DNA of 64,000 nt from Enterococcus wangshanyuanii. GTDB lineage: Bacteria; Bacillota; Bacilli; Lactobacillales; Enterococcaceae. How positions within the stretch are numbered: position 1 is the first letter of the stretch; each line of letters starts with the position of its first letter. Location of the stretch: positions 248,001 through 312,000 of the forward strand of contig NZ_CP021874.1 of the NCBI RefSeq assembly GCF_002197645.1. Reading direction: 5' to 3'. Positions 28,821-57,978 of the stretch are shown here, one piece after another. The notes beneath the pieces were generated by a model. That model saw only the letters and a program-made list of their open reading frames with translations. It was not told the origin of the DNA and ran no database searches. The position numbers and the translations under genes were made by a program.

Positions 28821-28838
28821 CTAAAAAATATTTTTTAG
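28821..28838. promoter_or_regulatory. Perfect 18-bp palindromic operator candidate, ssnA
   Basis: CTAAAAAATATTTTTTAG is its own reverse complement and lies 6 bp upstream of the -35. Related sequences stand at the xdh promoter (49694-49713) and the flavodoxin promoter (57718-57735). Confidence 0.6.
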
Positions 28839-28889
28839 GTAGCATTGTTTTTTTTTAGGTTAAGTGGTATAATTTACTCGAGTTAGAGG

Positions 28890-28970
28890 AAATAGTTTGC
28901 TGAAAGCAATGATGCGAACGCTTTCATCTGCTTTTAGAATAACAGAAAAAATTTGAACAGCCAACTATTT
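28890..28970 (+). other. Structured RNA leader of ssnA
   Basis: AAATAGTTTGCTG (28890-28902) pairs with CAGCCAACTATTT (28958-28970) at 12 of 13 positions. It encloses a TGAAAGC/GCTTTCA hairpin (28901-28907 with 28920-28926; it competes for two bases) and an A-rich single-stranded part. It does not match purine, xanthine-NMT1 or other riboswitch cores that I can recall. It could be a ligand-sensing leader or simply a stable 5' structure. Confidence 0.45.
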
Positions 28971-29000
28971 ATACTTTCGTGAATATTTGAACTAGTCGTT

Positions 29001-29015
29001 TTGTAAGCGATTACT
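29001..29015 (+). promoter_or_regulatory. cre-like site in ssnA leader
   Basis: TTGTAAGCGATTACT agrees with the WTGNAANCGNWNNCW form of the CcpA consensus. A cre between promoter and start codon would act as a roadblock, giving carbon catabolite repression of purine use. Confidence 0.45.
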
Positions 29016-29056
29016 TATTTAGGGAAAATTAAAAAAATGAATTTATAGGAGGAGCA

Positions 29057-30394
29057 ATGATGTTATTAGTTGGAAATGGACGATTGATTACTAGAGATGG
29101 ACAAGGAGCTTTTTATGAGGACGGTTGTGTTGCGATTGAAGGAGAAACAATAAAAAAGGTGGGTACAACAGCTGATTTGCGTAAAGAATTTCCTAAGGCT
29201 GAATTCATAGATGCTAAAGGTGGCGTGATCATGCCAGGGTTTATCAATATGCATAATCACATCTATAGTACATTTGCTAGAGGATTGAGTATCAATGGGT
29301 ATCATCCAAAGAATTTCATGGATATTCTAGAAGGTCAATGGTGGCGGATCGATCGGACGTTGAATTTAGATGACTCTTATCATAGTGCAAAAATCGCATA
29401 CTTAGATAGTATCAAAAATGGTGTGACAACAGTTTTCGATCATCATGCGAGCTATGGTGCGATTGAAGGTAGTTTAACACAACTGTCAAATGCAGCAGAC
29501 GAGTTAGGTGTGCGAACTTGCTTATGTTATGAAGTTTCTGATCGAGATGGTGAAGAGAAGATGAAAGCAGCAGTAAAAGAGAACGCTGATTTTATCAAGG
29601 CGAGTGCTGCTAGAAATGATGATATGCAAAAAGCAATGATGGGCATGCATGCAGCGTTCACTTTATCAGATAAATCGTTGGAACACTGTGCTGCGTACAC
29701 GCCAAAAGGTGTGGGTTATCACATTCATATTGCAGAAGATATTGCAGATGTGTATGATTCATTGAAAAAACACGGGAAACCGATCATCAATCGTCTCTTC
29801 GATCTTGGCATTTTAGGCAAACAAACGATGGCAGGTCACTGTATTCATATAGGTCCACATGAAATGGAAATTTTACGTGACACTGAGACGATGGTCGTGA
29901 CAAATCCAGAGTCAAATATGGGAAATGCAGTTGGTTGTCCGCCGGCAATGCGGATGTTTAATGAGTATGGCATTTTAATGGGACTTGGGACAGATGGCTA
30001 CACCAATGATGTCACTGAATCCTATAAAGTCGGAAATATCATTCATAAGCATCATTTAGCGGATCCTAACGCTGCTTGGGCTGAAATTCCTGAAATGTTA
30101 TTCAACAATAATCCTAAAATGGCGAATCGCTACTTTGAAAAGAAATTGGGTGTATTAGAGACGGGGGCAGCGGCGGATGTGATCGTTTTAGATTATAAAG
30201 GCCCGACACCAATGACCAAAGACAATTACAATTCTCATATTCTTTTCGGTATGAATGGCGGAGCTGTAACAGATACGATCATTGGTGGAACTATTCGTAT
30301 GAGAAATCGAGAAGTTCAGGGCGTTGATGAAGCAAAAATTTGGCATGATGCACAAGTCCAAGCGCAAAGCCTCTGGAATAGAATCAACGCCTAA
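29057..30394 (+). CDS. ssnA: Putative aminohydrolase SsnA
   Basis: A metal-dependent amidohydrolase of 445 aa, same family as guanine deaminase and chlorohydrolases. The metal motif HNH is in GFINMHNHIYSTFARG, with further His in GMHAAFT and GYHIHIAEDI and Asp in GLGTDGYTND. In E. coli and gut anaerobes ssnA belongs to the purine/urate degradation set; its exact substrate there is still unsettled, probably a purine or ring-opened intermediate. TAGGAGGAG precedes two in-frame ATGs (29057 and 29060). It is the first gene of block 1. Confidence 0.92.
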   Translation: MMLLVGNGRLITRDGQGAFYEDGCVAIEGETIKKVGTTADLRKEFPKAEFIDAKGGVIMPGFINMHNHIYSTFARGLSINGYHPKNFMDILEGQWWRIDRTLNLDDSYHSAKIAYLDSIKNGVTTVFDHHASYGAIEGSLTQLSNAADELGVRTCLCYEVSDRDGEEKMKAAVKENADFIKASAARNDDMQKAMMGMHAAFTLSDKSLEHCAAYTPKGVGYHIHIAEDIADVYDSLKKHGKPIINRLFDLGILGKQTMAGHCIHIGPHEMEILRDTETMVVTNPESNMGNAVGCPPAMRMFNEYGILMGLGTDGYTNDVTESYKVGNIIHKHHLADPNAAWAEIPEMLFNNNPKMANRYFEKKLGVLETGAAADVIVLDYKGPTPMTKDNYNSHILFGMNGGAVTDTIIGGTIRMRNREVQGVDEAKIWHDAQVQAQSLWNRINA

Positions 30395-30404
30395 ATAGTG
30401 CAAC

Positions 30405-30469
30405 AGGCTGAACAGACGCCTTTTTCTTTCAAATACGTAGCTAAATGTCAATAAGGACTTGTTCAACCT
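30405..30469 (+). other. Intercistronic stem between ssnA and ygfK
   Basis: AGGCTGAACA (30405-30414) pairs with TGTTCAACCT (30460-30469) with one mismatch, leaving a loop of about 45 nt. There is no T run after it, so it is more likely an mRNA stability or processing element than a terminator. Confidence 0.35.
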
Positions 30470-30507
30470 AATCTTAAATAAGCAGAAAATTAAAAGGAGT
30501 GACACAC

Positions 30508-33500
30508 ATGAGTGACATCATGCATCCGATTTCGGTCGATGGGTTATTGAACTGGATTTTGAATGAATACAAAAATGAATCAACTATTTTCGGAGTACGA
30601 AAGTTTTATAAAGCAAATCCAACTAAAACGATTCCGCTTTTTGGTGAAAAAATGGAAACACCCTGCGGTCCAGCTGCTGGTCCACATACACAATTAACGC
30701 AAAATATCATTGCTTCTTATTTAACCGGCTCACGTTTTTTTGAAGTGAAAACCGTGCAGATCATCGATGGTGAAGATTTACCTGTGAGTAAACCTTGTAT
30801 CACTGCCGCCGATGAATGCTATAACGTTGAGTGGTCCACCGAATTAAAAGTGCCGCAGGCTTATGATGAATACGTTAAGGCTTGGTTCATTCTAAAATTA
30901 TTGAGTAAAGAGCTGGGGTTAGGTGATCCAGATGGCTTCATTTTTAACATGAGTGTTGGATACGATTTAGCGGGAATTCAGTCTCCAAAAATTGATAAAT
31001 ATATCACTGATATGCAAAATGCACAAGGCACACCGATTTGGGAAGAGTGTATTGAAGCTGCGAATAAGTATCTGCCGAAGTTCAAGCATATTGATAAAGC
31101 ATACATTGACAGCATTAGTCCGAACGTTTGTCGTTCCATCACACTATCGACATTACATGGTTGTCCATCGGATGAAATTGAACGAATCACGACCTATTTG
31201 TTAGAAACGAAAGGACTGAATTCATTCATCAAATGTAATCCAACGATGCTTGGCTATGAATATACACGCCAAACAATGGACGACTTAGGTTTTGATTATA
31301 TGGTCTTTGACGATCACCATTTTCTTGAAGATCTGCAATTTGAAGATGCTGTGCCGATGCTGCAACGTCTTCAAAAATTGGCTGACAGTAAAGGTCTGAA
31401 CTTTGGTGTGAAAATCACGAATACATTTCCTGTAGGAATCGCAGAAGATGAGCTTCCAGGCGATGAAATGTATATGTCCGGGCGTTCGTTATTCCCATTA
31501 AGTATTTCTCTTGCTAAAAAATTATCAGATGCCTTCGATGGCAAACTCCAAATCTCCTATTCTGGCGGGGCGGATATTTTTAATATCAAAGATATCTTTG
31601 ATGCAGGAATTTGGCCGATCACGATGGCAACTACTCTATTAAAACCGGGTGGTTACCAACGGATGAATCAGGTAGCAAATTTACTTGGAGACTCCGAATA
31701 CCCTAAAGATGTGCGAGTAAACTTAGAGAAACTAGGAAAAATCGTTGAAAAGGCAAAATCACAAGGACGTTATAAAAAGTCGATCAAATTACCAGAAAGT
31801 CCCAAACTACGGACTACTGTTCCGTTGACAAATTGTTATACCGCACCATGCCGCAGTGATGGAGGCTGTCCGATCGATCAAGATATTCCAGCATATCTCC
31901 GTTATGTGAGTGAAGGAAATTATTTAGAAGCGCTGAAAGTGATCGTTGATAAAAATCCACTGCCGTTTATCACTGGAACGATCTGTGCTCATCCATGTAT
32001 GACAAAATGTACTCGTCAATTCTATGAAGGTTCGATCAAAATTCGTGAAGCTAAACTGGAAGCGGCAGAACATGCTTATGATGAATTAATGGCTTCAATG
32101 ACGAAACCGATTCGTAAAGAAAATGCAGCGAAAACAGCTGTAGTTGGCGGCGGACCTGCCGGAATCTCTGCTGGATTTTTACTGGCACGTGAAGGAATGC
32201 CGGTAACTGTTTTTGAAAAAGCTGATACGATCGGCGGCGTTTGTAGCCAAATCGTTCCAGAATTCAGAATTTCAATGAAATCTGTTCAAAATGACGTTGA
32301 AATGGCAAAATTCATGGGTGCCGAATTTAAAACAGGTCAAGCAGCCCCAAGCTTAGAAGAGTTGAGAGCACAAGGCTACACCAATGTCATTTATGCGATA
32401 GGTGCCTGGAAACATGGCAAATTAAGATTGGAATCAGGAGAGGCAATCAACTCGCTTGAGTTCTTAAAAGCCAACCGTGAAAACACGCAAATCAATCCAT
32501 ATGGAGAACAAATCGTCGTTGTCGGCGGCGGAAATACTGCAATGGACTGTGCAAGAGCAGCGACTACACTGCCAGGAGTGAAAAAGGTTTCTGTTGTTTA
32601 TCGTCGTGACAAACGAAATATGCCGGCAGATGAAGAAGAATTATACTTCGCATTAGAAGATGGTGTGGAATTTTTAGAACTATTGTCACCAATCAAGTTG
32701 GAGAACGGTTTATTGACTTGTGAAAAAATGCGCTTAGGTGAACGCGATGCTTCTGGTCGTCGTAGACCAGTTGGTACAGGCGAATTAACAGAAGTTCCGG
32801 CGGATACAGTGATTGCTGCAGTTGGTGAAAAAGTTGACACTGATTTCTACCAATCGATCGGTATTACGACTGATCAATATGGAAAAGTTGTCTCAAATCA
32901 AGCAACACTGGAAACAAATCTAAAAGACGTATATGTGATCGGTGATGCAAATTTGGGTCCAGCAACAATTGTTGAAGCGATTGCAGATGCGACAAAAGCT
33001 GCCGGTAATATTTGCCACATCCATAACGATCATTATGAGCAAACAAACTTAAATAGTGATGTTGCTTCAGTTCGCAATAAGCGCGGAATTCTTGAACCAA
33101 ATGAAGCGCTTTGTGGACAAGCCTCAAACTGCTTGGAATGTTCAACGATCTGTGAGTCATGTATGGATGTTTGTCCAAACCGCGCTAATATCGTTGTAAC
33201 AGTCAAAGGTCAGCCACAGATCGTCCATGTAGATCGTATGTGTAATGAATGCGGCAACTGTGAGACCTTCTGCCCATACGCAAGTGCACCTTATAAAGAC
33301 AAGTTCACTTTATTTAACACAGAAGCGGATTTCAATGATAGCACAAACTCTGGTTTCTATGTGATCGATCCGAGAGAAAAAATATGTATGGTTCGTTTGT
33401 GGGGGAATGTTTCAACGATCCGCTTAGATCAAGAAGGTGTTGATATCCCAGAAGATATTATTGATTTAATGAATACGATGATCGAAAGCTATGATTATTG

Positions 33501-33513
33501 TATGCAAATGTAA
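30508..33513 (+). CDS. ygfK: YgfK-type Fe-S flavoprotein oxidoreductase
   Basis: A 1001-aa protein, often annotated as a selenate reductase subunit. The N-terminal half (about 1-430) resembles a dihydroorotate-dehydrogenase-like barrel (GPAAGPHTQLTQN). The central part is GltD-like with Cys clusters (NCYTAPCRSDGGCP, CAHPCMTKC) and two dinucleotide-binding motifs (VVGGGPAGISAG, VVGGGNTAMDCARA). The C-terminus has ferredoxin-type clusters (CLECSTICESCMDVCP, CNECGNCETFCP). In purine clusters it is thought to move electrons for a reductive step. ATG 30508 is preferred over GTG 30499 because AAAGGAG overlaps the latter. Confidence 0.92.
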   Translation: MSDIMHPISVDGLLNWILNEYKNESTIFGVRKFYKANPTKTIPLFGEKMETPCGPAAGPHTQLTQNIIASYLTGSRFFEVKTVQIIDGEDLPVSKPCITAADECYNVEWSTELKVPQAYDEYVKAWFILKLLSKELGLGDPDGFIFNMSVGYDLAGIQSPKIDKYITDMQNAQGTPIWEECIEAANKYLPKFKHIDKAYIDSISPNVCRSITLSTLHGCPSDEIERITTYLLETKGLNSFIKCNPTMLGYEYTRQTMDDLGFDYMVFDDHHFLEDLQFEDAVPMLQRLQKLADSKGLNFGVKITNTFPVGIAEDELPGDEMYMSGRSLFPLSISLAKKLSDAFDGKLQISYSGGADIFNIKDIFDAGIWPITMATTLLKPGGYQRMNQVANLLGDSEYPKDVRVNLEKLGKIVEKAKSQGRYKKSIKLPESPKLRTTVPLTNCYTAPCRSDGGCPIDQDIPAYLRYVSEGNYLEALKVIVDKNPLPFITGTICAHPCMTKCTRQFYEGSIKIREAKLEAAEHAYDELMASMTKPIRKENAAKTAVVGGGPAGISAGFLLAREGMPVTVFEKADTIGGVCSQIVPEFRISMKSVQNDVEMAKFMGAEFKTGQAAPSLEELRAQGYTNVIYAIGAWKHGKLRLESGEAINSLEFLKANRENTQINPYGEQIVVVGGGNTAMDCARAATTLPGVKKVSVVYRRDKRNMPADEEELYFALEDGVEFLELLSPIKLENGLLTCEKMRLGERDASGRRRPVGTGELTEVPADTVIAAVGEKVDTDFYQSIGITTDQYGKVVSNQATLETNLKDVYVIGDANLGPATIVEAIADATKAAGNICHIHNDHYEQTNLNSDVASVRNKRGILEPNEALCGQASNCLECSTICESCMDVCPNRANIVVTVKGQPQIVHVDRMCNECGNCETFCPYASAPYKDKFTLFNTEADFNDSTNSGFYVIDPREKICMVRLWGNVSTIRLDQEGVDIPEDIIDLMNTMIESYDYCMQM

Positions 33514-33563
33514 AAGACATGAGTTGCCCAAAAAACAACTTCTGAATCGATGGAGGTTAAAAT

Positions 33564-34946
33564 ATGTCTATTCTTTTAAAAGGCGGAGTTGTCGTCTCCG
33601 CAAAAGAGCGTCGCCAGCTGGATGTCAGGCTGGACGGTGAAACAATCATTGAAATGGGAACAAATTTAGCAATAGGTGAGTCCGAGGTAGAAGATGTCAC
33701 AGGATGTTTTTTACTACCGGGATTTATCGATGCACATACGCATTTAGAATTAAATAACGGAAAAGGTTCGATGGGGACGGCTGATAATTTTTACACAGGC
33801 AGTAAAGCAGCTGTCGCCAAAGGAACCACCACCGTTATCGATATGGCCACACCAAGCAAAGGCAGTTCCTTAAAAGACTGCCTGGCTGCTTGGGATCATT
33901 TAGCCAAAGGAAATAGTTCATGTGATTATACGTATCATATGTCGATCATTGAATGGACGCCTGAAATCAAAGCAGAGATCAAAGAGATGATCGATGCTGG
34001 CATCACTTCCTTTAAAATGTATATGGCTTACGACAATCTACGAACAAAGGATGCTGAAATTTTTGAAGCCATGCAGGAAATTCGAAAATTTAACGGCATG
34101 CTTGGTATTCATTGTGAAAATGGGGATATGGTCAATGAGATGATCGCAAAGTTTGTTGCAGAAGGAAAACTGAGTCCTCATTTCCATCCACTGACTAGAC
34201 CCGATTCAGTGGAAGCTGAAGCGGTAGAACGCTATTTGATGATTGCAGATTTAGCTGACTTGCCAGTTAATATTGTGCATTTGAGCACAAAACGTTCTTT
34301 AGAAGCGGTTCGTCGAGCCCGTGAACGAGGGCAAAAAGTTTACGTTGAAACTTGCCCGCAATATCTAGTTTTAGATGAACATTTATATGATAGTTCGGAT
34401 TTTGAAGGAGCAAAATATGTTTGCTCACCGCCATTACGTTCTGTCGAAGATCAAGCAGCTTTGTGGACTGGAGTTATTGAAGGGACGATCGATACGATTT
34501 CTACCGATCATTGCAGCTTTAATTTTGAAGGACAAAAAACGATTGGGCGAGCTGATTTTAGCAAAATTCCAAATGGAATGCCTGGCGTAGAGACAAGGCC
34601 GGAGCTGATTTATACACAAGGAGTAACAACAAATAGAATCTCTTTAGAGCGGATGGTCGGACTTCTTTCAGAAGATATTGCTAAACAATTTTCTTTGTAT
34701 CCGCAAAAAGGTGTGATCCAAAAAGGCAGCGATGCAGATATCGTCGTTTGGGATCCGCAAAAGAACGGTGTCATTTCAGCAGCCACACAGCTGCAAAATG
34801 TTGATTATACACCTTATGACGGTTTTGAAACAAAGGGTGCCGCACGTTCCGTCTACCTTAGAGGGCAAAAAGTTGCTGAAGAGGGTCAGATGATCGCTGA
34901 GAAAAAAGGTCAATTTGTTTTTAGAACGATTGCTCAAACTAATTAA
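33564..34946 (+). CDS. hydA: Dihydropyrimidinase/hydantoinase-family cyclic amidohydrolase
   Basis: A 460-aa cyclic amidohydrolase that opens imide or hydantoin rings. Metal ligands are visible in DAHTHLEL, the carboxylated lysine in TSFKMYMAYDN, and His/Asp in GIHCENGDM, VHLSTKRS and STDHCSF. It corresponds to hydA/hyuA of the purine degradation cluster, where it probably opens a purine-derived ring before the diaminopropionate branch. GGAGG stands before ATG 33564. Allantoinase is an alternative, but the surrounding genes favour the hyuA type. Confidence 0.92.
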   Translation: MSILLKGGVVVSAKERRQLDVRLDGETIIEMGTNLAIGESEVEDVTGCFLLPGFIDAHTHLELNNGKGSMGTADNFYTGSKAAVAKGTTTVIDMATPSKGSSLKDCLAAWDHLAKGNSSCDYTYHMSIIEWTPEIKAEIKEMIDAGITSFKMYMAYDNLRTKDAEIFEAMQEIRKFNGMLGIHCENGDMVNEMIAKFVAEGKLSPHFHPLTRPDSVEAEAVERYLMIADLADLPVNIVHLSTKRSLEAVRRARERGQKVYVETCPQYLVLDEHLYDSSDFEGAKYVCSPPLRSVEDQAALWTGVIEGTIDTISTDHCSFNFEGQKTIGRADFSKIPNGMPGVETRPELIYTQGVTTNRISLERMVGLLSEDIAKQFSLYPQKGVIQKGSDADIVVWDPQKNGVISAATQLQNVDYTPYDGFETKGAARSVYLRGQKVAEEGQMIAEKKGQFVFRTIAQTN

Positions 34947-34999
34947 CGGAATCAATCAACCAGTGTTGATTTAAATAATAAATACGGAGGGGAACATTT

Positions 35000-36193: not shown

Positions 36194-36199
36194 TGGTAA

Positions 36200-37516: not shown

Positions 37517-37564
37517 TTATTTCGCGGGTAAGTCAGTCTCAAAAAACTAATAGGAATCATCGAG

Positions 37565-42599: not shown

Positions 42600-42622
42600 C
42601 GTTATCTTTCTTGAGTATAACG
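42600..42622. promoter_or_regulatory. ModE-box-like operator
   Basis: CGTTAT-N11-ATAACG is a 6-bp inverted repeat with a 23-bp span. The E. coli ModE operator at modA has the same half sites (CGTTAT...ATAACG) with a 24-bp span. It lies 27 bp before the start of a gene that encodes a ModE-type DNA-binding domain, so autoregulation is the natural guess. Confidence 0.5.
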
Positions 42623-42649
42623 AAAAAATCAAAAAAAGGAGGGAACGAT

Positions 42650-43024
42650 ATGGAGGAAAAAGAAAAGTTCAATTACACACTCAATCTGAAGCTGCGAACG
42701 AATCGAATATTTTTTGGCCCAGGCGTTGTCGAGTTGCTCCAGAGGATCTCTCAAACCGGTTCTTTGAATACCGCAGCCAAACAGATGAAAATGTCATACA
42801 ACAAGGCTTGGCGAATGATTCAAAAAGCAGAAGAAGAATTAGGCTATCCATTAGTGCATAAAAGTGTTGGCGGAAATAATGGCGGAGGGTCTGTGGTAAC
42901 AAGAGAAGGAAAACGCTTGACTGCTAAATTTTTACTTTTCCAAAAAAAGACCTACCATATCACGAATCAATATTTTAATGAAATATTCAGTGAGGATTTA
43001 GAAAAGTTGGAGGAAAAAGCATGA
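42650..43024 (+). CDS. ModE-like winged-helix regulator, DNA-binding domain only
   Basis: A 124-aa protein made of one ModE/LysR-type winged-helix domain (about residues 20-95; SQTGSLNTAAKQMKMSYNKAWRMI is recognisable, then VHKSVGGNNGGGSVVTREG). It lacks the C-terminal molybdate-binding domains of E. coli ModE, so metal sensing, if any, needs another partner. AAAGGAGGG precedes ATG 42650. The TGA overlaps the xdhC start (ATGA at 43021), so the two are coupled. A role as molybdenum-linked regulator is inferred from family and neighbours. Confidence 0.85.
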   Translation: MEEKEKFNYTLNLKLRTNRIFFGPGVVELLQRISQTGSLNTAAKQMKMSYNKAWRMIQKAEEELGYPLVHKSVGGNNGGGSVVTREGKRLTAKFLLFQKKTYHITNQYFNEIFSEDLEKLEEKA

Positions 43025-48919: not shown

Positions 48920-48923
48920 AACT

Positions 48924-49676
48924 ATGCGAGTGATCGGTCTAGATAGTGGCTCTACAACTACTAAAGGCGTTCTTTTTGAACATGGTAAACTTCAAAAGAA
49001 GAAACTCGTATCAACATCTGGTGACCCCAAAGTAGCTAGTGAAAAAATTTTTACGGAATTAGGCAATACGTCAGAAACGTTTATCGTCACAACAGGGTAT
49101 GGACGGAAATTGATTCGGGCAGACAAAATTGTAACAGAGATCACTTGTCATGCAAAAGGAGCCGCTTATTTGAGAGACGACATCAAAAATGTGATCGATA
49201 TTGGCGGTCAGGATAGCAAAGCGATTCGAATGGATCAGTTTGGCAGGGTGCTGGATTTCAGTATGAATGATAAATGTGCGGCTGGCACAGGGCGTTTTGT
49301 AGAAGTACTGATGAGAACGTTAGGTGAAGAAATTGAGCAGATCGATTCATTTGTCGCGCATGCAGTACCAGTAAAAATCAACAGCATGTGTACCGTCTTC
49401 GCAGAATCTGAAGTGATCAGTTTGATCGGAAAAGGAGAAAAAAGAGAGAATATTGCTCTAGGCGTTCTTCATTCGATCGCCAGCCGAATCAGTAATCAAT
49501 TAAGGCAGGTAAATCCAGAAACAGGTCCCATCTTTTTTTCTGGCGGCTTATCTCATAGTCAAACGATGGCAAAATTGATTGAACAGTACACGAAAATGGC
49601 GGTTTATTATGATCAGGAGCTCTCTCAATATGCAGGAGCAATCGGCGCAGCTCAAATCGGTTTGCAACAGAATTAA
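48924..49676 (+). CDS. BadF/HgdC-type ATPase activator
   Basis: A 250-aa ASKHA-fold ATPase (VIGLDSGSTTTKG at the N-terminus) of the 2-hydroxyacyl-CoA dehydratase activator/YjiL type. C118 (NDKCAAGTGRF) and C156 (INSMCTVFAESE) are the ligands for the [4Fe-4S] cluster that bridges the dimer. It pumps low-potential electrons into the upstream dehydratase-like protein. ATG 48924 with TGGAGGA is the start; a longer frame from 48867 overlaps the preceding gene. Last gene of block 2. Confidence 0.93.
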   Translation: MRVIGLDSGSTTTKGVLFEHGKLQKKKLVSTSGDPKVASEKIFTELGNTSETFIVTTGYGRKLIRADKIVTEITCHAKGAAYLRDDIKNVIDIGGQDSKAIRMDQFGRVLDFSMNDKCAAGTGRFVEVLMRTLGEEIEQIDSFVAHAVPVKINSMCTVFAESEVISLIGKGEKRENIALGVLHSIASRISNQLRQVNPETGPIFFSGGLSHSQTMAKLIEQYTKMAVYYDQELSQYAGAIGAAQIGLQQN

Positions 49677-49693
49677 ATAAAATTATTTTTTTG

Positions 49694-49733
49694 CTAAAAA
49701 ATAATTTTTAGCTTAACAATTTGTGTTATAATC
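49694..49733 (+). promoter_or_regulatory. xdh promoter with palindromic operator candidate
   Basis: TATAAT at 49728-49733 has an extended -10 (TGT). The -35 position (49705-49710, ATTTTT) is weak and lies inside GCTAAAAAATAATTTTTAGC (49694-49713), symmetric at 18 of 20 positions. The palindrome resembles the one before ssnA but stands closer to the -10, overlapping the -35, which fits repression. Confidence 0.6.
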
Positions 49734-49782
49734 ATAGTGATAAAAAGCTATATTATAATAGAAATTGGGGTGTAAAGAAAAA

Positions 49783-52359
49783 ATGTATTCATTCGTAGTA
49801 AATGGCAAACCTGAAACCTGCAGCACAAACAAAAAATTGATGGACTTCCTTCGAGAAGATTTATCACTGACCGGAACAAAAGATGGTTGTAACCAAGGCT
49901 CATGCGGCGCTTGTTCAGTGCTGATAAATGGAAGGGTTTCCAAAGCGTGTTTATTCAATCTGGAAAAGCTTGAAGGTAAGGAGATCATCACGATCGAAGG
50001 AATCAGTCAAAGACAAAAAGATGTTTATGCGTATGCCTTTGCGAAAATGGGCGCAGTTCAGTGCGGATATTGTATACCAGGAATCGTGATTTCAGCACAA
50101 GGACTATTGAACAAAAAAGAAGAACCAAGCGATGAAGAGGTTCGTAAAGCAATCAGAGGCAATATCTGCCGATGCACCGGTTACGTAAAAATCATTGAAG
50201 CTATTCAACTAGCTGCTAAAATGTTTCGTGAAGATTTGAGCATACCAGAAGAAGCCTCAACTGGCAAACTTGGTGAAGACTTTAAACGTGTTGATGCGGT
50301 TGAGAAGACTTTAGGTACGGGGCTTTACGTGGATGATATCACAGTCGAAGGTATGCTGCATGCTTCTGCAATCCGTAGTAAATACCCAAGAGCCAAAGTC
50401 CTAAAAATCGATACATCCAAAGCTTTAGAGCATCCTGAGTGTGAAGCGGTACTGACTGCTAAAGATGTACCGGGAAATAATAAAATCGGGCACTTGGAAT
50501 TTATATCTGATTGGGATGTAATGATTCCAGAAGGGGAAATCACACGTTACGTTGGGGATGCAGTAGCATTAGTTGTTGCTAAAGACAAAGAAGCATTAGA
50601 AGAAATCAAAGAGCTTGTCGAAATTGATTATGAAGAACTGAAACCGATGGTCACTTGTGAAGAAGCATTAGCCGAAGGGGCTCCATTGATCCATGAAAAA
50701 GGCAATATTTTATCTCATGAGCACCTCGTTCGTGGAAACGCAGATGAACAGCTAGCGGCGTCAGTTCATGTCGTCACCCAACATTATTCTGTACCGATCA
50801 ATGAACATGCATTTATGGAGCCTGAATGTGCAATCGCAATGCCGGAAGGCGAAGATGGAATCTTGCTTTATAGTGCTGGGCAAAGTATTTATGATGAACA
50901 AAGAGAAGTTGCAAGAATGCTTGGCGTAGAAAAAGAAAAAGTTCATGTTCAAGCAAAATTAGTCGGCGGCGGCTTTGGCGGAAAAGAAGATATGAGTGTA
51001 CAACATCATGCGTCCCTTGCCGCTTGGTGCTTGCAAAAACCCGTTAAAGTATTACTTAGCCGCCAAGAAAGTTTGATGGTTCATCCAAAACGTCATGGAA
51101 TGGAGATGGACTTCACAACTGGCTGTGATGCAGAAGGAAATCTGACAGCAATGAAAGCTGTTATCTATTCTGATACTGGAGCCTATGCTTCATTGGGCGG
51201 TCCAGTCTTGCAAAGAGCATGCACTCATGCGGCAGGTCCGTATAAATATCAACATATCGATGTTGAAGGGTTTGCCGTCTACACGAATAATCCACCGGCT
51301 GGAGCGTTTCGTGGCTTTGGTGTTTGTCAGACAGCCTTTGCAATTGAGAGTAATCTAAATCTATTAGCAGAAAAAGTAGGGATTTCGCAATGGGATATCC
51401 GCTATAAAAATGCCGTAGCACCAGGAGACTCGTTACCAAATGGACAACTTGTATCAAATAATGCCGCATTAAAAGAGACCTTGTTGGAAGTCAAAGAAGC
51501 ATACGAAAATGCTGAAATTGCTGGTATTTCTTGCTTCTTTAAAAACAGTGGGATCGGTGTTGGCTTATCCGATGTTGGTCGTTGTATTGTTTCAGTAGAA
51601 GAAGGTAAAGTTCACGTCAGAACGAGTGCCGCTTGTATCGGACAAGGAATGGCGACAGTTACTACGCAAGTGGCCTGTGAGACACTGAATCTGCCGCCGG
51701 AAATGATCATAGCAGAAGCACCAGATACTCGTCGTACACCAGATTCCGGGACAACAACTGCTTCTCGTCAGTCTTTATTTACGGGTGAAGCGACAAGAAG
51801 AGCGGCGATGCAGTTACGTTATGAGCTGGATATGGGACGTTCGTTATCAGATTTAGAAGGGCAAGAATTTTATGGTGAATATTCTGCTAAAACAGATCCA
51901 TTGATCAATGACAAAACCAATCCTGTCAGTCATGCTGGCTACGGTTATGCTTCTGAGGTAGCGATTTTAGATGAAAAAGGTAAAGTCGAAAAATTTGTTG
52001 CTGCTTATGACATGGGACAAGTTGTAAATCCTAAAGCCGCTGAAGGGCAAATCGAAGGTGGAATCGTTATGGGCATGGGTTATGCTTTGACAGAAAAATT
52101 TGCGATGGAAGACGGATACGTGAAAGCGAAGTATGCCACATTAGGATTACTGAATGCGGCACAAGTACCGCCGATCGAAACGATCTTAGTTCAAGCAGAA
52201 AACATCCATGATGGTTTGGCATATGGAATCAAAGGAGTGGGAGAATTAGCAACCATTCCGACAGCTCCTGCATTAGCGGGTGCGTATTATGCACTTGATG
52301 GTAAGTTGCGTCCGACATTACCTATGGAAGACACCTTCTATCAAAAAAAGAAAAAGTAA
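49783..52359 (+). CDS. xdh: Selenium-dependent xanthine dehydrogenase, fused Fe-S/Mo subunit
   Basis: An 858-aa molybdenum hydroxylase. The N-terminal [2Fe-2S] domains carry C36, C41, C44 and C56, then C94, C97, C129 and C131. The Mo domain (about 180-858) has GGGFGGKED, AFRGFGVCQ and GVGELATIP with catalytic E821. There is no FAD domain, so electrons leave through the Fe-S part to an unknown partner. It is XdhD/SDMH-like: selenium would be a labile Mo ligand, not selenocysteine, since no in-frame TGA occurs. ATG 49783 after GGGGTG. It opens the operon with mocA, selD, yedF, yqeC and yqeB. Confidence 0.93.
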   Translation: MYSFVVNGKPETCSTNKKLMDFLREDLSLTGTKDGCNQGSCGACSVLINGRVSKACLFNLEKLEGKEIITIEGISQRQKDVYAYAFAKMGAVQCGYCIPGIVISAQGLLNKKEEPSDEEVRKAIRGNICRCTGYVKIIEAIQLAAKMFREDLSIPEEASTGKLGEDFKRVDAVEKTLGTGLYVDDITVEGMLHASAIRSKYPRAKVLKIDTSKALEHPECEAVLTAKDVPGNNKIGHLEFISDWDVMIPEGEITRYVGDAVALVVAKDKEALEEIKELVEIDYEELKPMVTCEEALAEGAPLIHEKGNILSHEHLVRGNADEQLAASVHVVTQHYSVPINEHAFMEPECAIAMPEGEDGILLYSAGQSIYDEQREVARMLGVEKEKVHVQAKLVGGGFGGKEDMSVQHHASLAAWCLQKPVKVLLSRQESLMVHPKRHGMEMDFTTGCDAEGNLTAMKAVIYSDTGAYASLGGPVLQRACTHAAGPYKYQHIDVEGFAVYTNNPPAGAFRGFGVCQTAFAIESNLNLLAEKVGISQWDIRYKNAVAPGDSLPNGQLVSNNAALKETLLEVKEAYENAEIAGISCFFKNSGIGVGLSDVGRCIVSVEEGKVHVRTSAACIGQGMATVTTQVACETLNLPPEMIIAEAPDTRRTPDSGTTTASRQSLFTGEATRRAAMQLRYELDMGRSLSDLEGQEFYGEYSAKTDPLINDKTNPVSHAGYGYASEVAILDEKGKVEKFVAAYDMGQVVNPKAAEGQIEGGIVMGMGYALTEKFAMEDGYVKAKYATLGLLNAAQVPPIETILVQAENIHDGLAYGIKGVGELATIPTAPALAGAYYALDGKLRPTLPMEDTFYQKKKK

Positions 52360-52397
52360 TACTGTGATGTGCTGGGAAATTCGCTCATAACAGGCGA

Positions 52398-52446
52398 GAA
52401 AACGCATCTATTTTGAAAGAACTGGATGCGTTTTTTCTTTTTATAA
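52398..52446 (+). terminator. Terminator after xdh
   Basis: AAACGCATC (52398-52406) pairs with GATGCGTTT around a 27-nt loop, followed by TTTTTC. It may separate xdh expression from the downstream maturation genes, which have no obvious promoter of their own. Confidence 0.85.
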
Positions 52447-52470
52447 AACAGGTGTAAAGGAGCAAAAGTG

Positions 52471-53067
52471 ATGGTAAAGATCAGTGCAATCATTATGGCT
52501 TCTGGTTTTTCTAAAAGAATGGGCACGAATAAATTGTTCCTTGAATATCAGGGAAGGACTTTTTTAGAACACATTCTTTTGTTATCAAAGAAGCTTGGTT
52601 TTTTTGAACAAATTTTAGTCATTTCACCTGAAAATTTAGCAGGAATATCTTTACCTGAAGGAGTCAAAGTCGTACTGAATCATGAAGCTGATCAAGGGCA
52701 AAGTACTAGCGTACGTTTGGGGACGCAGTTTGCTTCTGGAGATGGTTATCTTTATTTAACCGTAGATCAGCCTTTGTTGGATGAACACTTATTTGTACCA
52801 CTTTTAGCAGCGTATACCACAGACAACATTGTTTTTCCAGTAACGGTCAAAGGGAATCCAAGCAGTCCGATCTTTTTCGGGAAACGATTTCGCGCTGATT
52901 TATTGCAGGTTACAGGTAGTTCTGGCGGCCGCGAGGTTCGAAATAAGTATCCTGATACGTGGCAACGAGTACCAGTCAGCGAACCTTACCGGTTAGCAGA
53001 CATCGATACATATAGCGATTATCAAAAGCTGATCGCTAATAAAGTTGATGAAAGGACACGATCATGA
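52471..53067 (+). CDS. MocA/MobA-like molybdenum cofactor nucleotidyltransferase
   Basis: A 198-aa nucleotidyltransferase: IIMASGFSKRMGTNK is the nucleotide-binding signature, and VDQPLLD is the Asp-containing metal site. MocA (CTP) makes the cytosine dinucleotide form of the molybdenum cofactor for xanthine dehydrogenase-type enzymes; in selenium-dependent clusters a MocA/YgfJ-type gene is standard. AAAGGAG precedes ATG 52471 (GTG 52468 is too close). Its TGA overlaps the next ATG (ATGA). Confidence 0.9.
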   Translation: MVKISAIIMASGFSKRMGTNKLFLEYQGRTFLEHILLLSKKLGFFEQILVISPENLAGISLPEGVKVVLNHEADQGQSTSVRLGTQFASGDGYLYLTVDQPLLDEHLFVPLLAAYTTDNIVFPVTVKGNPSSPIFFGKRFRADLLQVTGSSGGREVRNKYPDTWQRVPVSEPYRLADIDTYSDYQKLIANKVDERTRS

Positions 53068-54215
53068 AACAGCCTGTCTATCTAAATTATGCAGCAACCT
53101 CTAACCAGAAATTTGACACAACGATCGATGAGCTTTGTGCATATTTAAAAGAAAATAATAGCACAAATACAAACCGCAGCATCAATACTCTAGGTGATCT
53201 TGGTTCACTTTTTGATGCACGCCAAGTACTTGCTGATTTTTTTCATGCCCCAGATCCAGCACATGTGATTTTTACCTCTAATGCAACGATGGCATTGAAT
53301 ATGGTGCTGCATGGATTACTAAAACCAGGGGATCATGTATTGACAACGATGGTAGAACATAATGCGGTAACCAGACCGCTGCAGCTTCTTGAGACGGAAC
53401 GAAATGTTGTTGTTACGCATTTAGTATGTGCGAAAGATGGTAGTCTTGATCCTGAGCAGATCGAAACGGCTATTCGAGGAGAAACGAAGGTGCTGGTGAT
53501 GACCCATGCCTCGAATGTTTTAGGGACGATACTCCCTGTTAAAGAATGTTTTGAAAAAGCTAAAAAACACGGGATCATCACGATTTTGGATAGTGCTCAG
53601 ACGGCAGGCATTTTACCGATCAATATGGAAGAGTTGTCAATAGATATTTTAACGTTTACAGGACACAAAAGCCTGATGGGGCTGTCTGGAATCGGTGGTT
53701 TTGTTTTAGGAAAAAACATAGAAAAGAAAATCGATCCTTGGCTGACAGGGGGAACGGGTAGTGCTTCTCATTTATTGACGCAGCCGGATTTTTTACCAGA
53801 TAAATTTGAGCCGGGCACCTTGAACATGCTTGGGATCATTAGTTTGAAAAGTGCTGTTACAGAAATACAGCGGCTTGGTTTAGAGCAAATATTAATGCAT
53901 GAACGAATGTTGACGAAAAGATTTTTAGATGGAGTCAAAGGAATGCCGATTGAGATCTTGGGGTGTCAAGATGCTGAACGGTCAGTCCCTGTTGTTTCCC
54001 TCGTTAGTCCCAAAATAGATAGCGGTGAGCTTGCCCAACGATTAGCTGATGCGTTTCAAATTATTACAAGATCTGGCTTACATTGTGCACCATTGGCACA
54101 TGAAACAGCTGGAACTATCAAGACTGGAGCGGTTCGCTTTAGCTTTGGCTGGCAAACAACAACAGCAGAAATCGATTATGCCTTATCAGCATTAGAAAGC
54201 GTTTTATCTCAATGA
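53064..54215 (+). CDS. Cysteine desulfurase-like PLP enzyme (EF2568 type)
   Basis: A 383-aa class V aminotransferase-fold protein. The PLP lysine is K202 in TFTGHKSLMG and the reactive cysteine is C341 in SGLHCAPLAHE. It belongs to the cysteine desulfurase/selenocysteine lyase relatives found with SelD in SDMH clusters (named after E. faecalis EF2568). It probably supplies selenide or persulfide to SelD or to XdhC. It overlaps the MocA gene by 4 bp and selD follows closely. Confidence 0.9.
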   Translation: MKQPVYLNYAATSNQKFDTTIDELCAYLKENNSTNTNRSINTLGDLGSLFDARQVLADFFHAPDPAHVIFTSNATMALNMVLHGLLKPGDHVLTTMVEHNAVTRPLQLLETERNVVVTHLVCAKDGSLDPEQIETAIRGETKVLVMTHASNVLGTILPVKECFEKAKKHGIITILDSAQTAGILPINMEELSIDILTFTGHKSLMGLSGIGGFVLGKNIEKKIDPWLTGGTGSASHLLTQPDFLPDKFEPGTLNMLGIISLKSAVTEIQRLGLEQILMHERMLTKRFLDGVKGMPIEILGCQDAERSVPVVSLVSPKIDSGELAQRLADAFQIITRSGLHCAPLAHETAGTIKTGAVRFSFGWQTTTAEIDYALSALESVLSQ

Positions 54216-54235
54216 TAGAAAGAAAGGAGAGAGCG

Positions 54236-55258
54236 ATGGAATTTTTATCACAATGTACGTCAGGAGGCTGTGGCGCTAAAATCGGCCCCAACGAATTAGC
54301 CGGCTTTTTAAATCATTTACCAACATTTACGGACAAACATATATTAGTGGACTTTGACTCATCTGATGATGCTGCTGTTTATCAAATTTCTGATGATACA
54401 GCACTGATTTCAACTGTTGATTTTTTCTCTCCGATGGTCGATGATCCTAAAACCTTTGGTCGGATCGCCGCCGCGAACGCTATGAGTGATGTGTATGCCA
54501 TGGGCGGTGAGGTGCTGTTTGCTTTGAATTTGGTTTGTTTTCCTGAAAAGATGGATAAGCAGATGCTTTCAGATATCCTTTATGGCGGAGCCGAAAAACT
54601 GAAGGAAGCACAAGCATCTTTGGCAGGAGGACATTCGATTTACGATCATGAACCGAAATATGGCTTGGCTGTAACAGGAAAGGTCGATCCACAAAAAATC
54701 ATCCGCAACAACACAGCAAAGCCTGGAGATGTTTTGATTTTAACAAAAGCTTTAGGTGTAGGGCTCATTCAAGCGGCTGCTAGGGGACAAGTTGCTTCAA
54801 AAAAAGCAGAGCAAGCGGCTATTGACTCGATGGAGCGGCTGAATAAATATGCTGCAGAAAAAATGCGGGGTTTTGCTGTCCATGCTTGTACAGATGTCAC
54901 TGGTTTTGGTCTATTAGTTCATGCTGCTGAGATGGCGGACAAGCATGTAACACTTGTCATAGACACAGAACAACTGCCGTTATTACCAGAAGCTTATCGT
55001 TATGCAGAAGAATTTTTAGCAACAGCAGCTGGACAAAGAAATCGTCAATTTATGGCTGAGAAAATTGATCTATCCACTGTTTCGTCAGCATTTCAAGAGA
55101 TATTGTTTGATCCGCAAACATCTGGAGGGCTCTTATTGAGCGTAGCACCAGAACAGGCAGAGGCTTGTTTGGCTGCTATCCAAAAAGAAGATCCTGTTGC
55201 TGCCATTATTGGGGAAGTCTGTGAAAGAGTCACTGAGCAGCCGTTGATTATTTTATAA
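54236..55258 (+). CDS. selD: Selenide, water dikinase
   Basis: Makes selenophosphate from selenide and ATP. It has 340 aa, with the glycine-rich N-terminal loop SQCTSGGCGAKIGP: C12 and K15 match the catalytic Cys and Lys of E. coli SelD, but the second Cys of the E. coli loop is Ala here. The AIRS-type core has STVDFFSPMVDDP and LAGGHSIYD. ATG 54236 has AAAGGAG; an earlier ATG at 54212 overlaps the previous gene. No selA or selB is in the window, which fits an SelD serving a Mo enzyme, although genes elsewhere cannot be excluded. Confidence 0.95.
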   Translation: MEFLSQCTSGGCGAKIGPNELAGFLNHLPTFTDKHILVDFDSSDDAAVYQISDDTALISTVDFFSPMVDDPKTFGRIAAANAMSDVYAMGGEVLFALNLVCFPEKMDKQMLSDILYGGAEKLKEAQASLAGGHSIYDHEPKYGLAVTGKVDPQKIIRNNTAKPGDVLILTKALGVGLIQAAARGQVASKKAEQAAIDSMERLNKYAAEKMRGFAVHACTDVTGFGLLVHAAEMADKHVTLVIDTEQLPLLPEAYRYAEEFLATAAGQRNRQFMAEKIDLSTVSSAFQEILFDPQTSGGLLLSVAPEQAEACLAAIQKEDPVAAIIGEVCERVTEQPLIIL

Positions 55259-55274
55259 GAAAGAAGGATACAAA

Positions 55275-55865
55275 ATGAATAAAATCAATGCTTTAGGAAA
55301 ACCCTGTCCAATTCCAGTCATTGAAGCAAAAAAAGCCATTCGCGAAATTCAAGCAGAAGGTGGAATAATCGAAATACGGGTCGATAACGAAGTCGCAGTC
55401 AAAAATATAGAAAAGCTGGTCCATGGCCTGAATTTGACGGCTGAGATCAAACAGTTGAATGAAGTAGAATGGGCAGTCCAAATTGCTGTACCCAAAAAAC
55501 TGATACAAACAGATTCAGAGCAACCGGATCATGAGCTCGTGATTGCTTTTGGGAAAAAAACGATGGGTGAAGGAGATCCTGATCTTGGCGAAATTTTGCT
55601 TAAAAATTTTATCTACTCACTGACAGAACTCGAGACACCACCAGAACACCTACTCTTTTTCAATAGTGGAGCCTATCTGACGAATAAAGGATCAAATGCT
55701 TTAAAGGATCTACATAGACTGGAAGAAAAAGGAACGCAAATCAGCACGTGTGGCGCTTGTCTGGACTTTTATCAAATCAAAGAAAGCTTAGCGATCGGTG
55801 AAATCACTAATATGTACGGAATCACAGAAGTGATGGCTCAAGCAAACAAAGTGATCAACTTTTAG
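55275..55865 (+). CDS. yedF: Selenium metabolism protein YedF
   Basis: A 196-aa protein with an N-terminal TusA/SirA-like domain (CPIPVIEAKKAI motif, about 1-70) and a C-terminal DsrE-like domain (about 90-196; STCGACLDFYQI). This layout is the selenium-linked YedF type. Its cysteines could carry sulfur or selenium between the desulfurase and SelD or XdhC. GAAGGA precedes ATG 55275. It is the member of block 3 most directly linked with selenium transfer. Confidence 0.9.
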   Translation: MNKINALGKPCPIPVIEAKKAIREIQAEGGIIEIRVDNEVAVKNIEKLVHGLNLTAEIKQLNEVEWAVQIAVPKKLIQTDSEQPDHELVIAFGKKTMGEGDPDLGEILLKNFIYSLTELETPPEHLLFFNSGAYLTNKGSNALKDLHRLEEKGTQISTCGACLDFYQIKESLAIGEITNMYGITEVMAQANKVINF

Positions 55866-55881
55866 TAAAAGAGGTGTAAAG

Positions 55882-56139
55882 ATGGAATACCTTTTGACTT
55901 TTCAAAATACGCATTATGCCGTTCACAGTGAAAAAGTCTTGGCAGCACATAAGATTCCAGTTTCTGTTATGGCATTGCCGACAAGTTTAGGCGATTTTTG
56001 TGGAATTTGCATAAGATTGGATGATGCTTTTTTTGAGAAAGGACGGCAGTACTTATCACAAGCGGACTTACCCGTTGAAGAAATTTTCATCATTGAAGAG
56101 CAAAATAACGAAAGGAGCTATAGGGTATGGAACGATTGA
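55882..56139 (+). CDS. DUF3343 small protein
   Basis: An 85-aa protein of the DUF3343 family (TFQNTHYAVHSEKVL, ALPTSLGDFCGICIRLDD), regularly found in selenium-dependent hydroxylase and YedF-containing operons. Its function is unknown; the C-x2-C at CGIC could take part in sulfur or selenium transfer. AGAGGTG precedes ATG 55882. It overlaps yqeC by 13 bp. Confidence 0.85.
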   Translation: MEYLLTFQNTHYAVHSEKVLAAHKIPVSVMALPTSLGDFCGICIRLDDAFFEKGRQYLSQADLPVEEIFIIEEQNNERSYRVWND

Positions 56140-56855
56140 TCGATTGCTTTGATTTTGAAGGCAAGCAAGTTGTCTCGCTGATTGGAAGCGGCGGTAAAAC
56201 AAGCCTGATGTGGTATTTGGCAGAATGCTATCGTCAAGAAAAAGTGTTAGTAAGTACGACGACAAAAATCGGTTGCCCTGTGCATCAGCCCTATGATTTT
56301 TTCTACAGTCAAGATTTCTCTAAAGTGGGAACGGATGGTAAAGGGATCACTCTAGCCGGAACTCGTCTGTCGGGTGGACATAAATTAAGTGCGCCACCTA
56401 GCATGATTCAGCAAAGCTTTCCAATGTTTGATAAAATCTTTCTAGAAGCAGACGGCTCAAAGCAATTGCCGTTGAAAGGATGGGAAACATTTGAGCCGGT
56501 GGTCATTCCTGAGACCACTGCAACGATTGGGCTGATTCCGATATCAGTATTGAATGAAAAAATAGATTTGACGACTGTTCATCGCTTGCCTTTATTTTTG
56601 AGAGCTACCGGAACTAAAACGGGAGATGTCATTTGTGAGGAAACGTTAGCTGAGGTCATTTCCAGTCCTAAAGGGCTTTGGGCAAAGAGTCGTGGTCATC
56701 GGATTTTATGTATCAATCAAGTAGAAAGTTCAGAACAGTTAAAACAGGCGGAAAAAGTATTATCTTTGTTGCCATGCATGCTGATGAAGCGGTTGACTAA
56801 AGTAATTGCCTGCAATGTTCAATCTGGAAAAGGAGTCGTTTTATGGGAAAAATAG
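56127..56855 (+). CDS. yqeC: Selenium-dependent hydroxylase accessory protein YqeC
   Basis: A 242-aa protein with an N-terminal P-loop-like VSLIGSGGKTSLMW (about 15-28), matching the YqeC family that occurs only with selenium-dependent Mo hydroxylases. It probably uses a nucleotide to help cofactor selenation, although the step is unknown. AAAGGAG stands before ATG 56127, inside the end of the DUF3343 gene. It overlaps yqeB by 13 bp. Confidence 0.9.
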   Translation: MERLIDCFDFEGKQVVSLIGSGGKTSLMWYLAECYRQEKVLVSTTTKIGCPVHQPYDFFYSQDFSKVGTDGKGITLAGTRLSGGHKLSAPPSMIQQSFPMFDKIFLEADGSKQLPLKGWETFEPVVIPETTATIGLIPISVLNEKIDLTTVHRLPLFLRATGTKTGDVICEETLAEVISSPKGLWAKSRGHRILCINQVESSEQLKQAEKVLSLLPCMLMKRLTKVIACNVQSGKGVVLWEK

Positions 56856-57673
56856 CAGAAGGAGTTGCTGAAACAATTGTTGTTGTTAGAGGCGGCGGAG
56901 ATCTTGCGACTGGTGTAGTTCAAAAACTCCATCATACTGGATTCAAGGTTGTTATTCTGGAAACGGAAAAGCCTCTAGCGATTAGGAGGACAGTGGCTTT
57001 ATGTAATGCTGTTTTTGAAAAAGAACAGCAAGTTGAAGATTTAAACGCACGTTTAGTTACTTCTTTAACAGAATGTGAAGCATGCTGGAATAAAGGGGAA
57101 TTACCTGTATGGGTGGATGCACAAGCAGATTCTTTAAATGAACTAAAACCGTTGATTTTAATTGATGCGATTTTAGCTAAGCGAAATATCGGGACAAATC
57201 GAAAGATGGCGCCGATCACGATTGCATTAGGTCCAGGCTTTTCTGCACCAGAGGATGTTGATGTAGTTGTAGAGACGATGAGAGGTCATTACTTAGGGAG
57301 ACTCTATTTTGAAGGAAGCGCGTTAGCAAATACAGGAATTCCTGGTGAAATTGGCGGGAAAAGTGCAGAACGTGTGATTCATGCTCCTGCTTCTGGTCAA
57401 GTAAAGCATATCAAAAAAATCGGAGATAGCGTTCAAAAGGGTGAACTTTTATTTTACGTTGGAGACCAACCAGTATTTTCACCATTGGAGGGTGTTTTAA
57501 GAGGCTTGATTTCTGATCAAGTTGAATGTAAAAAAGGGTTGAAATGCGCGGATGTCGATCCGAGAGTAGTGGATGAAGTCGATTGTTTTACTATTTCTGA
57601 TAAAGCACGAGCATTAGGAGGCGCGGTTTTAGATGCTATTTTTATGATCGGTCATCAAAAAGAGAGACTATAA
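56843..57673 (+). CDS. yqeB: Selenium-dependent molybdenum hydroxylase system protein YqeB (EF2563 type)
   Basis: A 276-aa protein of the EF2563/YqeB family, a marker of selenium-dependent molybdenum hydroxylases. The N-terminal VVVRGGGDLATGVVQKLH is a Rossmann-like nucleotide-binding segment; the C-terminal part (about 195-260, HAPASGQVKHIKKIGDSVQKG) looks biotinyl/lipoyl-like without a modified lysine in a standard context. It is the last gene of block 3 and is followed by a terminator. Confidence 0.9.
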   Translation: MGKIAEGVAETIVVVRGGGDLATGVVQKLHHTGFKVVILETEKPLAIRRTVALCNAVFEKEQQVEDLNARLVTSLTECEACWNKGELPVWVDAQADSLNELKPLILIDAILAKRNIGTNRKMAPITIALGPGFSAPEDVDVVVETMRGHYLGRLYFEGSALANTGIPGEIGGKSAERVIHAPASGQVKHIKKIGDSVQKGELLFYVGDQPVFSPLEGVLRGLISDQVECKKGLKCADVDPRVVDEVDCFTISDKARALGGAVLDAIFMIGHQKERL

Positions 57674-57978
57674 ATAAGTCTGTCAAGTTAGGCGTTATTG
57701 ATAATCATTCGCCTTTTCTAAAAAATATTTTTTTTACCTAAAAATTATTGTTTTAAACGCTTGATTTATGGTATAGTATAAGTGAAGTTTTTGCTTCTTT
57801 CTGCTTTTGAAAAAGAAAGCGTTTTATCTAGATTTTATATTATGTGAAAAAGGTAATTTGATTGAGAAATGGTGAAGCAACTATTAATTTCGATAATAAG
57901 TATGAGAGAAATGAAAGGGGTTTCGTTCAGCTTTTATACTTTAAAATATTTTGAAAAAAGATGAGAGGATGAGCAAAT
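57674..57978 (+). promoter_or_regulatory. Terminator, flavodoxin promoter and leader
   Basis: This 305-bp gap starts with a terminator (57690-57718). Then CTAAAAAATATTTTTT (57718-57733) and ACCTAAAAATTATTG (57736-57750) repeat the operator-like sequences seen before ssnA. The promoter is TTGTTT (57748-57753)-18 bp-TATAGT (57772-57777, extended -10). The leader of about 190 nt has a short GAAG/CTTC hairpin, then CTTTCT with AGAAAG, and a cre-like AGAAAGCGTTTTAT (57814-57827). Confidence 0.65.
57690..57718 (+). terminator. Terminator of the xdh-yqeB operon
   Basis: AGGCG (57690-57694) pairs with CGCCT (57710-57714), with inner TGAT-A-ATCA, followed by TTTC. It starts 17 bp after the yqeB stop codon. 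The T run merges with the AT-rich operator candidate. Confidence 0.75.

Follow-up and report, generated by a model that had tools for sequence, protein, structure and literature searches.

Uric acid levels of the host are linked to the anaerobic breakdown of urate by bacteria of the gut. The reductive uric acid degradation pathway, as far as the available part of its description goes, comprises the same catabolic genes (PMC12507026) as an island of Enterococcus wangshanyuanii, which is analysed here together with a palindromic candidate operator at its promoters. The island lies in a stretch of 64,000 nucleotides (contig NZ_CP021874.1, positions 248,001 to 312,000), referred to as the window. 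In the same article, Enterococcus termitis UAD1 is cited as a urate degrader with formate as co-substrate, and the words regulator, YheO and operon are absent from its main text (PMC12507026). For the equivalent cluster of Clostridioides and Clostridium, the sigma-54 enhancer-binding protein DioR has been proposed as regulator (PMC6615313, PMC11448449), with the same genes among its proposed targets, namely dpaL, ygeW-ygfK-ssnA-ygeY, yqeB, pbuX and xdhC (PMC6615313). However, DioR is described in the accessible parts of these reports as a sigma-54 activator, whereas at the promoters considered here sigma-A type -10 boxes are read at a fixed spacing, and the proposed regulator is a protein with the domains PAS_6 and HTH_22. 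A further cis-regulatory element upstream of ssnA is the ssnA RNA (Rfam RF03031), which differs in being a structured leader RNA of some Clostridia-type loci; an Rfam search of the window from 20 to 64 kb gave no leader RNA match. The same PAS_6-helix-turn-helix (HTH), YheO-like architecture is found in Cj1387c of Campylobacter jejuni, which is linked to a RidA/L-PSP gene, as ridA lies within the target run here, and whose loss raised the expression of the adjacent gene's product (PMC4519771). Cj1387c differs in its role in flagella-flagella interaction, and the part of the article available to us contains no link to purines, no operator and, in the main text, no mention of a "binding site" (PMC4519771). 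In the open-licence literature, within its accessible parts, we found no operator for a YheO-family protein and, except for DioR, no named regulator of this cluster. DauR of Pseudomonas, a YheO-type repressor of a D-arginine operon, belongs to a different pathway.

An initial annotation of the window, made from its letters, had proposed one operator common to the purine genes, the selenium- and molybdenum-dependent hydroxylase and the flavodoxin/PFOR block, a proposal which is supported here by the rarity, the conservation and the position of the sites. Judged from sequence comparisons, this is most probably the operator of a YheO-family (PAS_6-HTH_22) regulator of reductive urate and purine catabolism. 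The initial annotation missed that the sites form a two-site unit, that a fourth, unlinked target exists in front of a mobA-formate channel-formate dehydrogenase operon, and that the element extends to Clostridia.

Sites in the window and their rarity

At ssnA, the perfect 18-bp palindrome was found with the letters first reported, and the half site TTTTTTAGGT indeed recurs with a spacing of 20 bp (28831-28840 and 28851-28860). The pair at the flavodoxin gene (fld) was also read correctly, with CTAAAAAATATTTTTTTT at 57718-57735 and ACCTAAAAATTATTG at 57736-57750, which together form a 20-bp tandem with the second unit at 57738-57755. For the site at xdh, the symmetry of 18 out of 20 positions and the overlap with the -35 region stood, but its position had been given one base off, as GCTAAAAAATAATTTTTAGC occupies 49693-49712 and ends 14 bp upstream of the -10 box TATAAT.

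The first refuting case named in the initial annotation, a motif equally frequent at unrelated promoters, did not arise in genome-wide scans at up to one mismatch, in island scans at up to two or in the intergenic control of the Clostridia-type loci described below. In the window, four matches with up to three mismatches were found as opposed to 0.27 expected, a number reached by none of 100 shuffles; the fourth match lies inside gatD and has three mismatches. The excess was weaker for a looser pattern (four matches, 1.18 expected, reached by 5 of 100 shuffles), and ACCTAAAAA occurs five times with 0.90 expected. The complete home genome (4,155,954 bases) contains 27 places with up to three mismatches, five with up to two and two with up to one; the two closest lie at the ssnA and xdh promoters, and the site at fld belongs to the three with exactly two mismatches. 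Across 22 genomes of the genus, 31 places with up to one mismatch compare with two for a reversed control pattern. Such sites are held by 12 of the 13 congeners that bear the island, 30 in total, of which 29 are located at ssnA, xdh or mobA, whereas the nine congeners without detected ssnA, yheO and mobA together hold one stray site. The three best matches of genome G001 are those at ssnA, mobA and xdh, and the two best of G092 are those at ssnA and xdh. In the 22 islands of the family (838,944 bases), every one of the 34 matches with up to two mismatches lies in front of ssnA (13), xdh (15), fld (5) or xdhC (1).

Stray matches at G091:C9:56632, G088:C68:67917, G099:C1:402974 and G103:C11:40677 were not counted as targets; the one in G099 overlaps the end of a LacI-type gene. 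The one in G103, a genome which carries yheO and lacks ssnA, has one mismatch (L286:1501-1518) and lies 17 bp upstream of a gene for a PnrA-like (nucleoside-type) substrate-binding protein; it possibly marks a further target or is a chance match.

Conservation and a target outside the island

SsnA was detected in 22 of the 105 genomes of the family, and in all 22 islands yheO is adjacent to and divergent from ssnA. The second refuting case named in the initial annotation, loss of the motif in related species, did not arise either: the promoter footprint at ssnA is kept in every island (20 with two TTTTTAG half-sites), and a site with up to two mismatches is found at xdh in 15 of the 22. The genomes G091 and G001 combine a perfect palindrome at ssnA with a second half-site in which one base is altered. 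The palindrome is eroded on its left side in distant members, in which the two TTTTTTAG half-sites and the -10 box persist, and therefore the functional element looks like a two-unit operator rather than the palindrome alone. The conserved element is thus larger than the palindrome, namely a two-site operator of A/T-rich, C/G-flanked units about 20 bp apart with the core TTTTTAG-N5-CT.

The distances from the units to the -10 box are nearly invariant. At ssnA, the unit centre lies at 38.5 bp in 13 of the 14 genomes scored and at 40.5 bp in G077, with G073, whose palindrome is two bases shorter, left out of the scoring. The distance at xdh is 24.5 bp in 15 of 15 genomes, including G073 after correction of a raw value of 12.5, which came from a second TATAAT inside the spacer. 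At fld, the two centres are found at 45.5 and 25.5 bp in 13 of the 15 genomes scanned; the exceptions are G083, with 23.5 bp for a single unit inside the scanned stretch, and G092, which is without an fld site. In loci with xdhC at the head of a separate operon, the site at the xdhC promoter matches at 16 of 18 positions in L096, 15 in L098 and L099, 14 in L095 and 13 in L097.

A second perfect palindrome, found outside the island by the motif scan alone of the 22 congeners, precedes an operon with the order mobA, formate/nitrite channel (FNT), an open reading frame (ORF) of 198 residues without a match, NuoE-like, NuoF-like, formate dehydrogenase alpha and MoeA-like, which was read whole in the home genome and, as far as mobA and the channel gene, in L179 and L185. 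Of 13 congeners, 10 have this palindrome without a mismatch, two match it at 15 of 18 positions and the home genome at 13 of 18, and a probable E. faecalis genome reaches 17 of 18. A strong, conserved promoter directly precedes the unit, which occupies about +10 to +27 by count. We take EF1390 to be the formate dehydrogenase of this operon. EF1390 is listed as an oxidoreductase with molybdenum and selenium (PMC7701990). Since E. termitis UAD1 is cited as using formate together with urate, a formate dehydrogenase as target makes metabolic sense.

Table 1. Positions of the operator units, promoters and genes discussed in the text (window numbering unless indicated)
Feature	Position	Strand	Remarks
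Operator unit 1 at ssnA	28821-28838	.	CTAAAAAATATTTTTTAG, perfect palindrome; centre 38.5 bp upstream of -10
Operator unit 2 at ssnA	28841-28860	+	half palindrome, 20 bp beyond unit 1
ssnA promoter	28845-28873	+	TTGTTT 28845-28850; extended -10 TGGTATAAT, TATAAT 28868-28873; read from sequence
Operator at xdh	49694-49711	.	centre 24.5 bp upstream of -10 TATAAT 49727-49732
Operator unit 1 at fld	57718-57735	.	CTAAAAAATATTTTTTTT; centre 45.5 bp upstream of -10
Operator unit 2 at fld	57738-57755	.	CTAAAAATTATTGTTTTA; 20 bp on; centre 25.5 bp upstream of -10 TATAGT 57772-57777
yheO	27986-28627	-	Pfam PAS_6 2e-33, HTH_22 6e-20; divergent from adjacent ssnA; proposed binder
ssnA	29057-30394	+	NCBIfam TIGR03314; heads run ssnA-ygfK-hydA-dpaL-ygeY-ygeW-arcC-ridA-pbuX (purine/urate catabolism)
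xdh, selenium-dependent xanthine dehydrogenase	49783-52359	+	TIGR03311; in-frame ATG 49783
Flavodoxin (fld)	57979-58422	+	Pfam Flavodoxin_1; heads flavodoxin/DHODK-like/GltD-like/PFOR block
ModE-like HTH protein	42611-43024		inside island; 137-residue ORF; Pfam HTH_1 only
mobA operon of the home genome	G000:C1:115060 onwards (L251:3058-10769)		outside window; degraded operator 13/18

Clostridia-type loci

A scan of GTDB contigs for SsnA provided the best 80 of 377 loci, 22 from Lactobacillales and 58 others. Among the loci read by eye, many Clostridia-type yheO-ssnA intergenic regions carry a form of ACAAAAATTTTTAG-N5-CTAAAAATTTTTGTA. A 34-bp matrix was trained on the 32 loci with an adjacent, divergent yheO, and in a leave-one-out test 22 of them scored at p<=0.01 and 28 at p<=0.03. 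Random seeds for expectation-maximisation returned partly the same motif and partly yheO coding sequence or its promoter, some of the latter with equally high likelihoods. Of 28 genomes without a divergent yheO beside ssnA, 20 carry an ssnA-type yheO (at least 53% identity) elsewhere, 16 of them Clostridia-type. The operator was found at p<=0.01 in 14 of the 16 genomes with yheO elsewhere as opposed to none of the eight without yheO (Fisher 6.1e-5), with two further loci (L139 and L142) left unclassed. Base composition was controlled by shuffling each region, with proper shuffles covering these 16 and 8 loci and a weaker swap method used elsewhere. As a control for A/T tracts of promoters in general, 298 further intergenic regions from these 58 loci were scored. 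Six reached at least 10, a cut-off of our own choice, and five of the six are found in front of pbuX, arcC or, in three cases, a divergent xdh/dpaL pair. For this control and for the promoter distances, the matrix was trained on 400-bp regions not trimmed at yheO. A simple promoter finder applied to 23 loci placed a -35 box at 7-9 bp from the operator towards ssnA in 15 of them and at 8-10 bp towards yheO in 21; the ssnA-side box is also visible by eye in L100, L104, L134, L146 and L151. By count, the operator centre is near -61 in L145.

The ssnA RNA occurs twice upstream of ssnA in L116 (9707-9754 and 9836-9883) and is also present in L102, L109, L112, L126 and L132. It stands beside an adjacent yheO in L102, L109, L126 and L132, and L112 and L116 are without an ssnA-type yheO. 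In the loci with both the RNA and an adjacent yheO, the operator scored at p<=0.01 in L132, 0.017 in L102, 0.030 in L126 and 0.35 in L109. In genomes of Clostridia and of Blautia type whose yheO is not linked to ssnA, yheO frequently diverges from a hydantoinase-like gene, and A/T units are visible by eye in between (L265, L266, L269-L274, L276 and L279).

The candidate regulator and the sign of regulation

YheO is favoured as the binder because of its adjacency, its co-occurrence with the operator and its near-invariant C-terminal helix. A regulator with PAS_6 and HTH_22 is encoded beside the target genes in all 22 islands. Among the congeners, a site with up to one mismatch is present in 12 of 13 genomes with yheO as opposed to one of nine without, yheO being undetected in all nine congeners that lack ssnA, so that the site follows the regulator, with exceptions. 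The C-terminal helix is near invariant across 42 sequences and is taken as the recognition helix. A search for structural relatives of YheO among solved proteins returned none, the best E value being 0.059 for FtsH fragments.

Another protein, for instance a global regulator of redox state or anaerobiosis, might bind instead, with yheO co-occurring merely as a member of the regulon. The targets are anaerobic redox genes, and two genomes discussed below retain yheO without a visible operator at fld, both of which fit this explanation. However, there are hardly any close matches outside the pathway, the congeners without yheO and ssnA are practically free of sites as described above, and yheO adjoins ssnA in every island, all of which makes such a regulator improbable. 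UP elements, which are A/T tracts that the C-terminal domain of the RNA polymerase alpha subunit contacts, are a still less probable explanation; the sites would then be kept for promoter strength without a dedicated regulator. The sites are A/T tracts, and unit 1 at ssnA lies by count at about -59 to -42, in the classical UP zone. The sequence AAAAATATTTT fits the UP consensus. However, the sites do not keep a fixed place just upstream of the -35 box, as the perfect palindrome at mobA lies downstream of a strong promoter and the unit at xdh overlaps the -35 box, and the motif hardly occurs in other intergenic regions, follows the presence of yheO and has conserved C/G flanks and N5 spacing; the UP element is thus disfavoured by position and specificity. 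Of the two candidate binders first named, the YheO-type protein stands on adjacency and co-occurrence, whereas the ModE-like protein, although encoded within 21 of the 22 islands and in keeping with molybdenum and selenium genes among the targets, is hardly credible, since it dissociates from the operator in both directions. Of the 24 operator-bearing genomes searched, 13 gave no ModE-like match at E<=1e-5 (several of the 13 being metagenome assemblies that may be incomplete, and the operator being judged by eye in L090 and L091), and in the L116 and L127 genomes the ModE-like protein occurs together with ssnA where both yheO and the operator are missing. With 77.1 bits for TIGR00637, below the cut-off of 98.5, the ModE-like protein is also not a full ModE with a molybdate-binding domain.

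Several results weigh against the assignment to YheO. In the home genome, a reversed control pattern has 60 places with up to three mismatches as opposed to 27 for the motif, and across the genus the counts of motif and control are similar at up to two mismatches; specificity is visible only at up to one mismatch, or when position and conservation are added, and matches with two to three mismatches are unspecific by number alone. The ssnA-less genomes G099 and G103 keep a yheO (56% and 49% identity) with the same C-terminal helix that adjoins a flavodoxin gene, and the region between the two genes shows no clear operator, the best match being 13 of 18. The mobA site of the home genome is degraded, and 7 of the 21 genomes with mobA show 11-14 of 18 positions only. 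Ten of the 32 Clostridia-type loci with an adjacent yheO miss p<=0.01 and four also miss p<=0.03, in a test which was not blind, as the matrix seed was chosen by eye after most loci, including the held-out ones, had been seen. The yheO-less genomes of the comparison number only eight, several of them less AT-rich and some with the ssnA RNA, and related genomes are not independent in any of the counts. Finally, the geometry of the sites does not settle the sign of regulation.

In the two ssnA-less genomes, yheO is divergent from flavodoxin (L253:8289-9919 and L254:8487-9823), with PFOR next in L253. By this adjacency, yheO keeps a tie to flavodoxin, which is among the three targets found in the window.

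According to the proposed mechanism, YheO, encoded divergently from ssnA, would bind the two-site operator and would coordinate ssnA-ygfK-hydA-dpaL-ygeY-ygeW-arcC, the selenium-dependent xdh with its cofactor genes, and flavodoxin/PFOR; in relatives, its regulon would also take in the unlinked operon of mobA, formate channel and NAD formate dehydrogenase. Its PAS domain would probably sense a metabolite of the pathway. Repression is favoured in Lactobacillales because the units cover the -35 and -10 boxes or lie just downstream of the start, most clearly at mobA, and for enterococci we lean towards repression by promoter occlusion that is relieved by a ligand. In Clostridia, where the operator precedes each of the two divergent promoters by about 61 bp, activation by YheO from near -61 has a slight edge. 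The full picture, in which YheO is a dedicated urate-metabolite sensor that reads the one code TTTTTAG-N5-CT in Lactobacillales and Clostridia, acts as an activator from -61 in the latter and as an occluding repressor in enterococci, and couples the reduction of urate to the oxidation of formate, the assembly of selenium/molybdenum cofactors and the pyruvate:flavodoxin supply of electrons, is put forward as tentative. Through this operator, gut bacteria appear to connect the breakdown of urate with selenium/molybdenum enzymes and with the use of formate. If this is true, a regulator of the cluster is named, a testable operator for a YheO-family protein and a motif for finding further members become available, and formate dehydrogenase and formate uptake are predicted to be part of the urate programme.

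The island contains the known set for anaerobic purine and urate breakdown, with SsnA, YgfK, a D-hydantoinase-like protein, diaminopropionate ammonia-lyase, YgeY, YgeW, carbamate kinase, RidA, xanthine permease, an XdhC-type factor, the selenium-dependent xanthine dehydrogenase, a MocA-like protein, SclA, SelD, YedF, YqeC and YqeB, followed by flavodoxin and a gene (from 60768 on) that is called PFOR-like after the name given in the initial annotation and a reading of the gene data. The mechanical ORF list opens xdh at TTG 49765 instead of the ATG used in Table 1. The ssnA leader contains the two sole exact matches in the window to WTGNAANCGNWNNCW, the consensus of the catabolite-responsive element (cre), at 28913-28927 (-) and 29001-29015 (+); at up to one mismatch, its 45 matches in the window as opposed to 44.6 expected are uninformative. 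The paired exact matches suggest catabolite repression of ssnA by CcpA.

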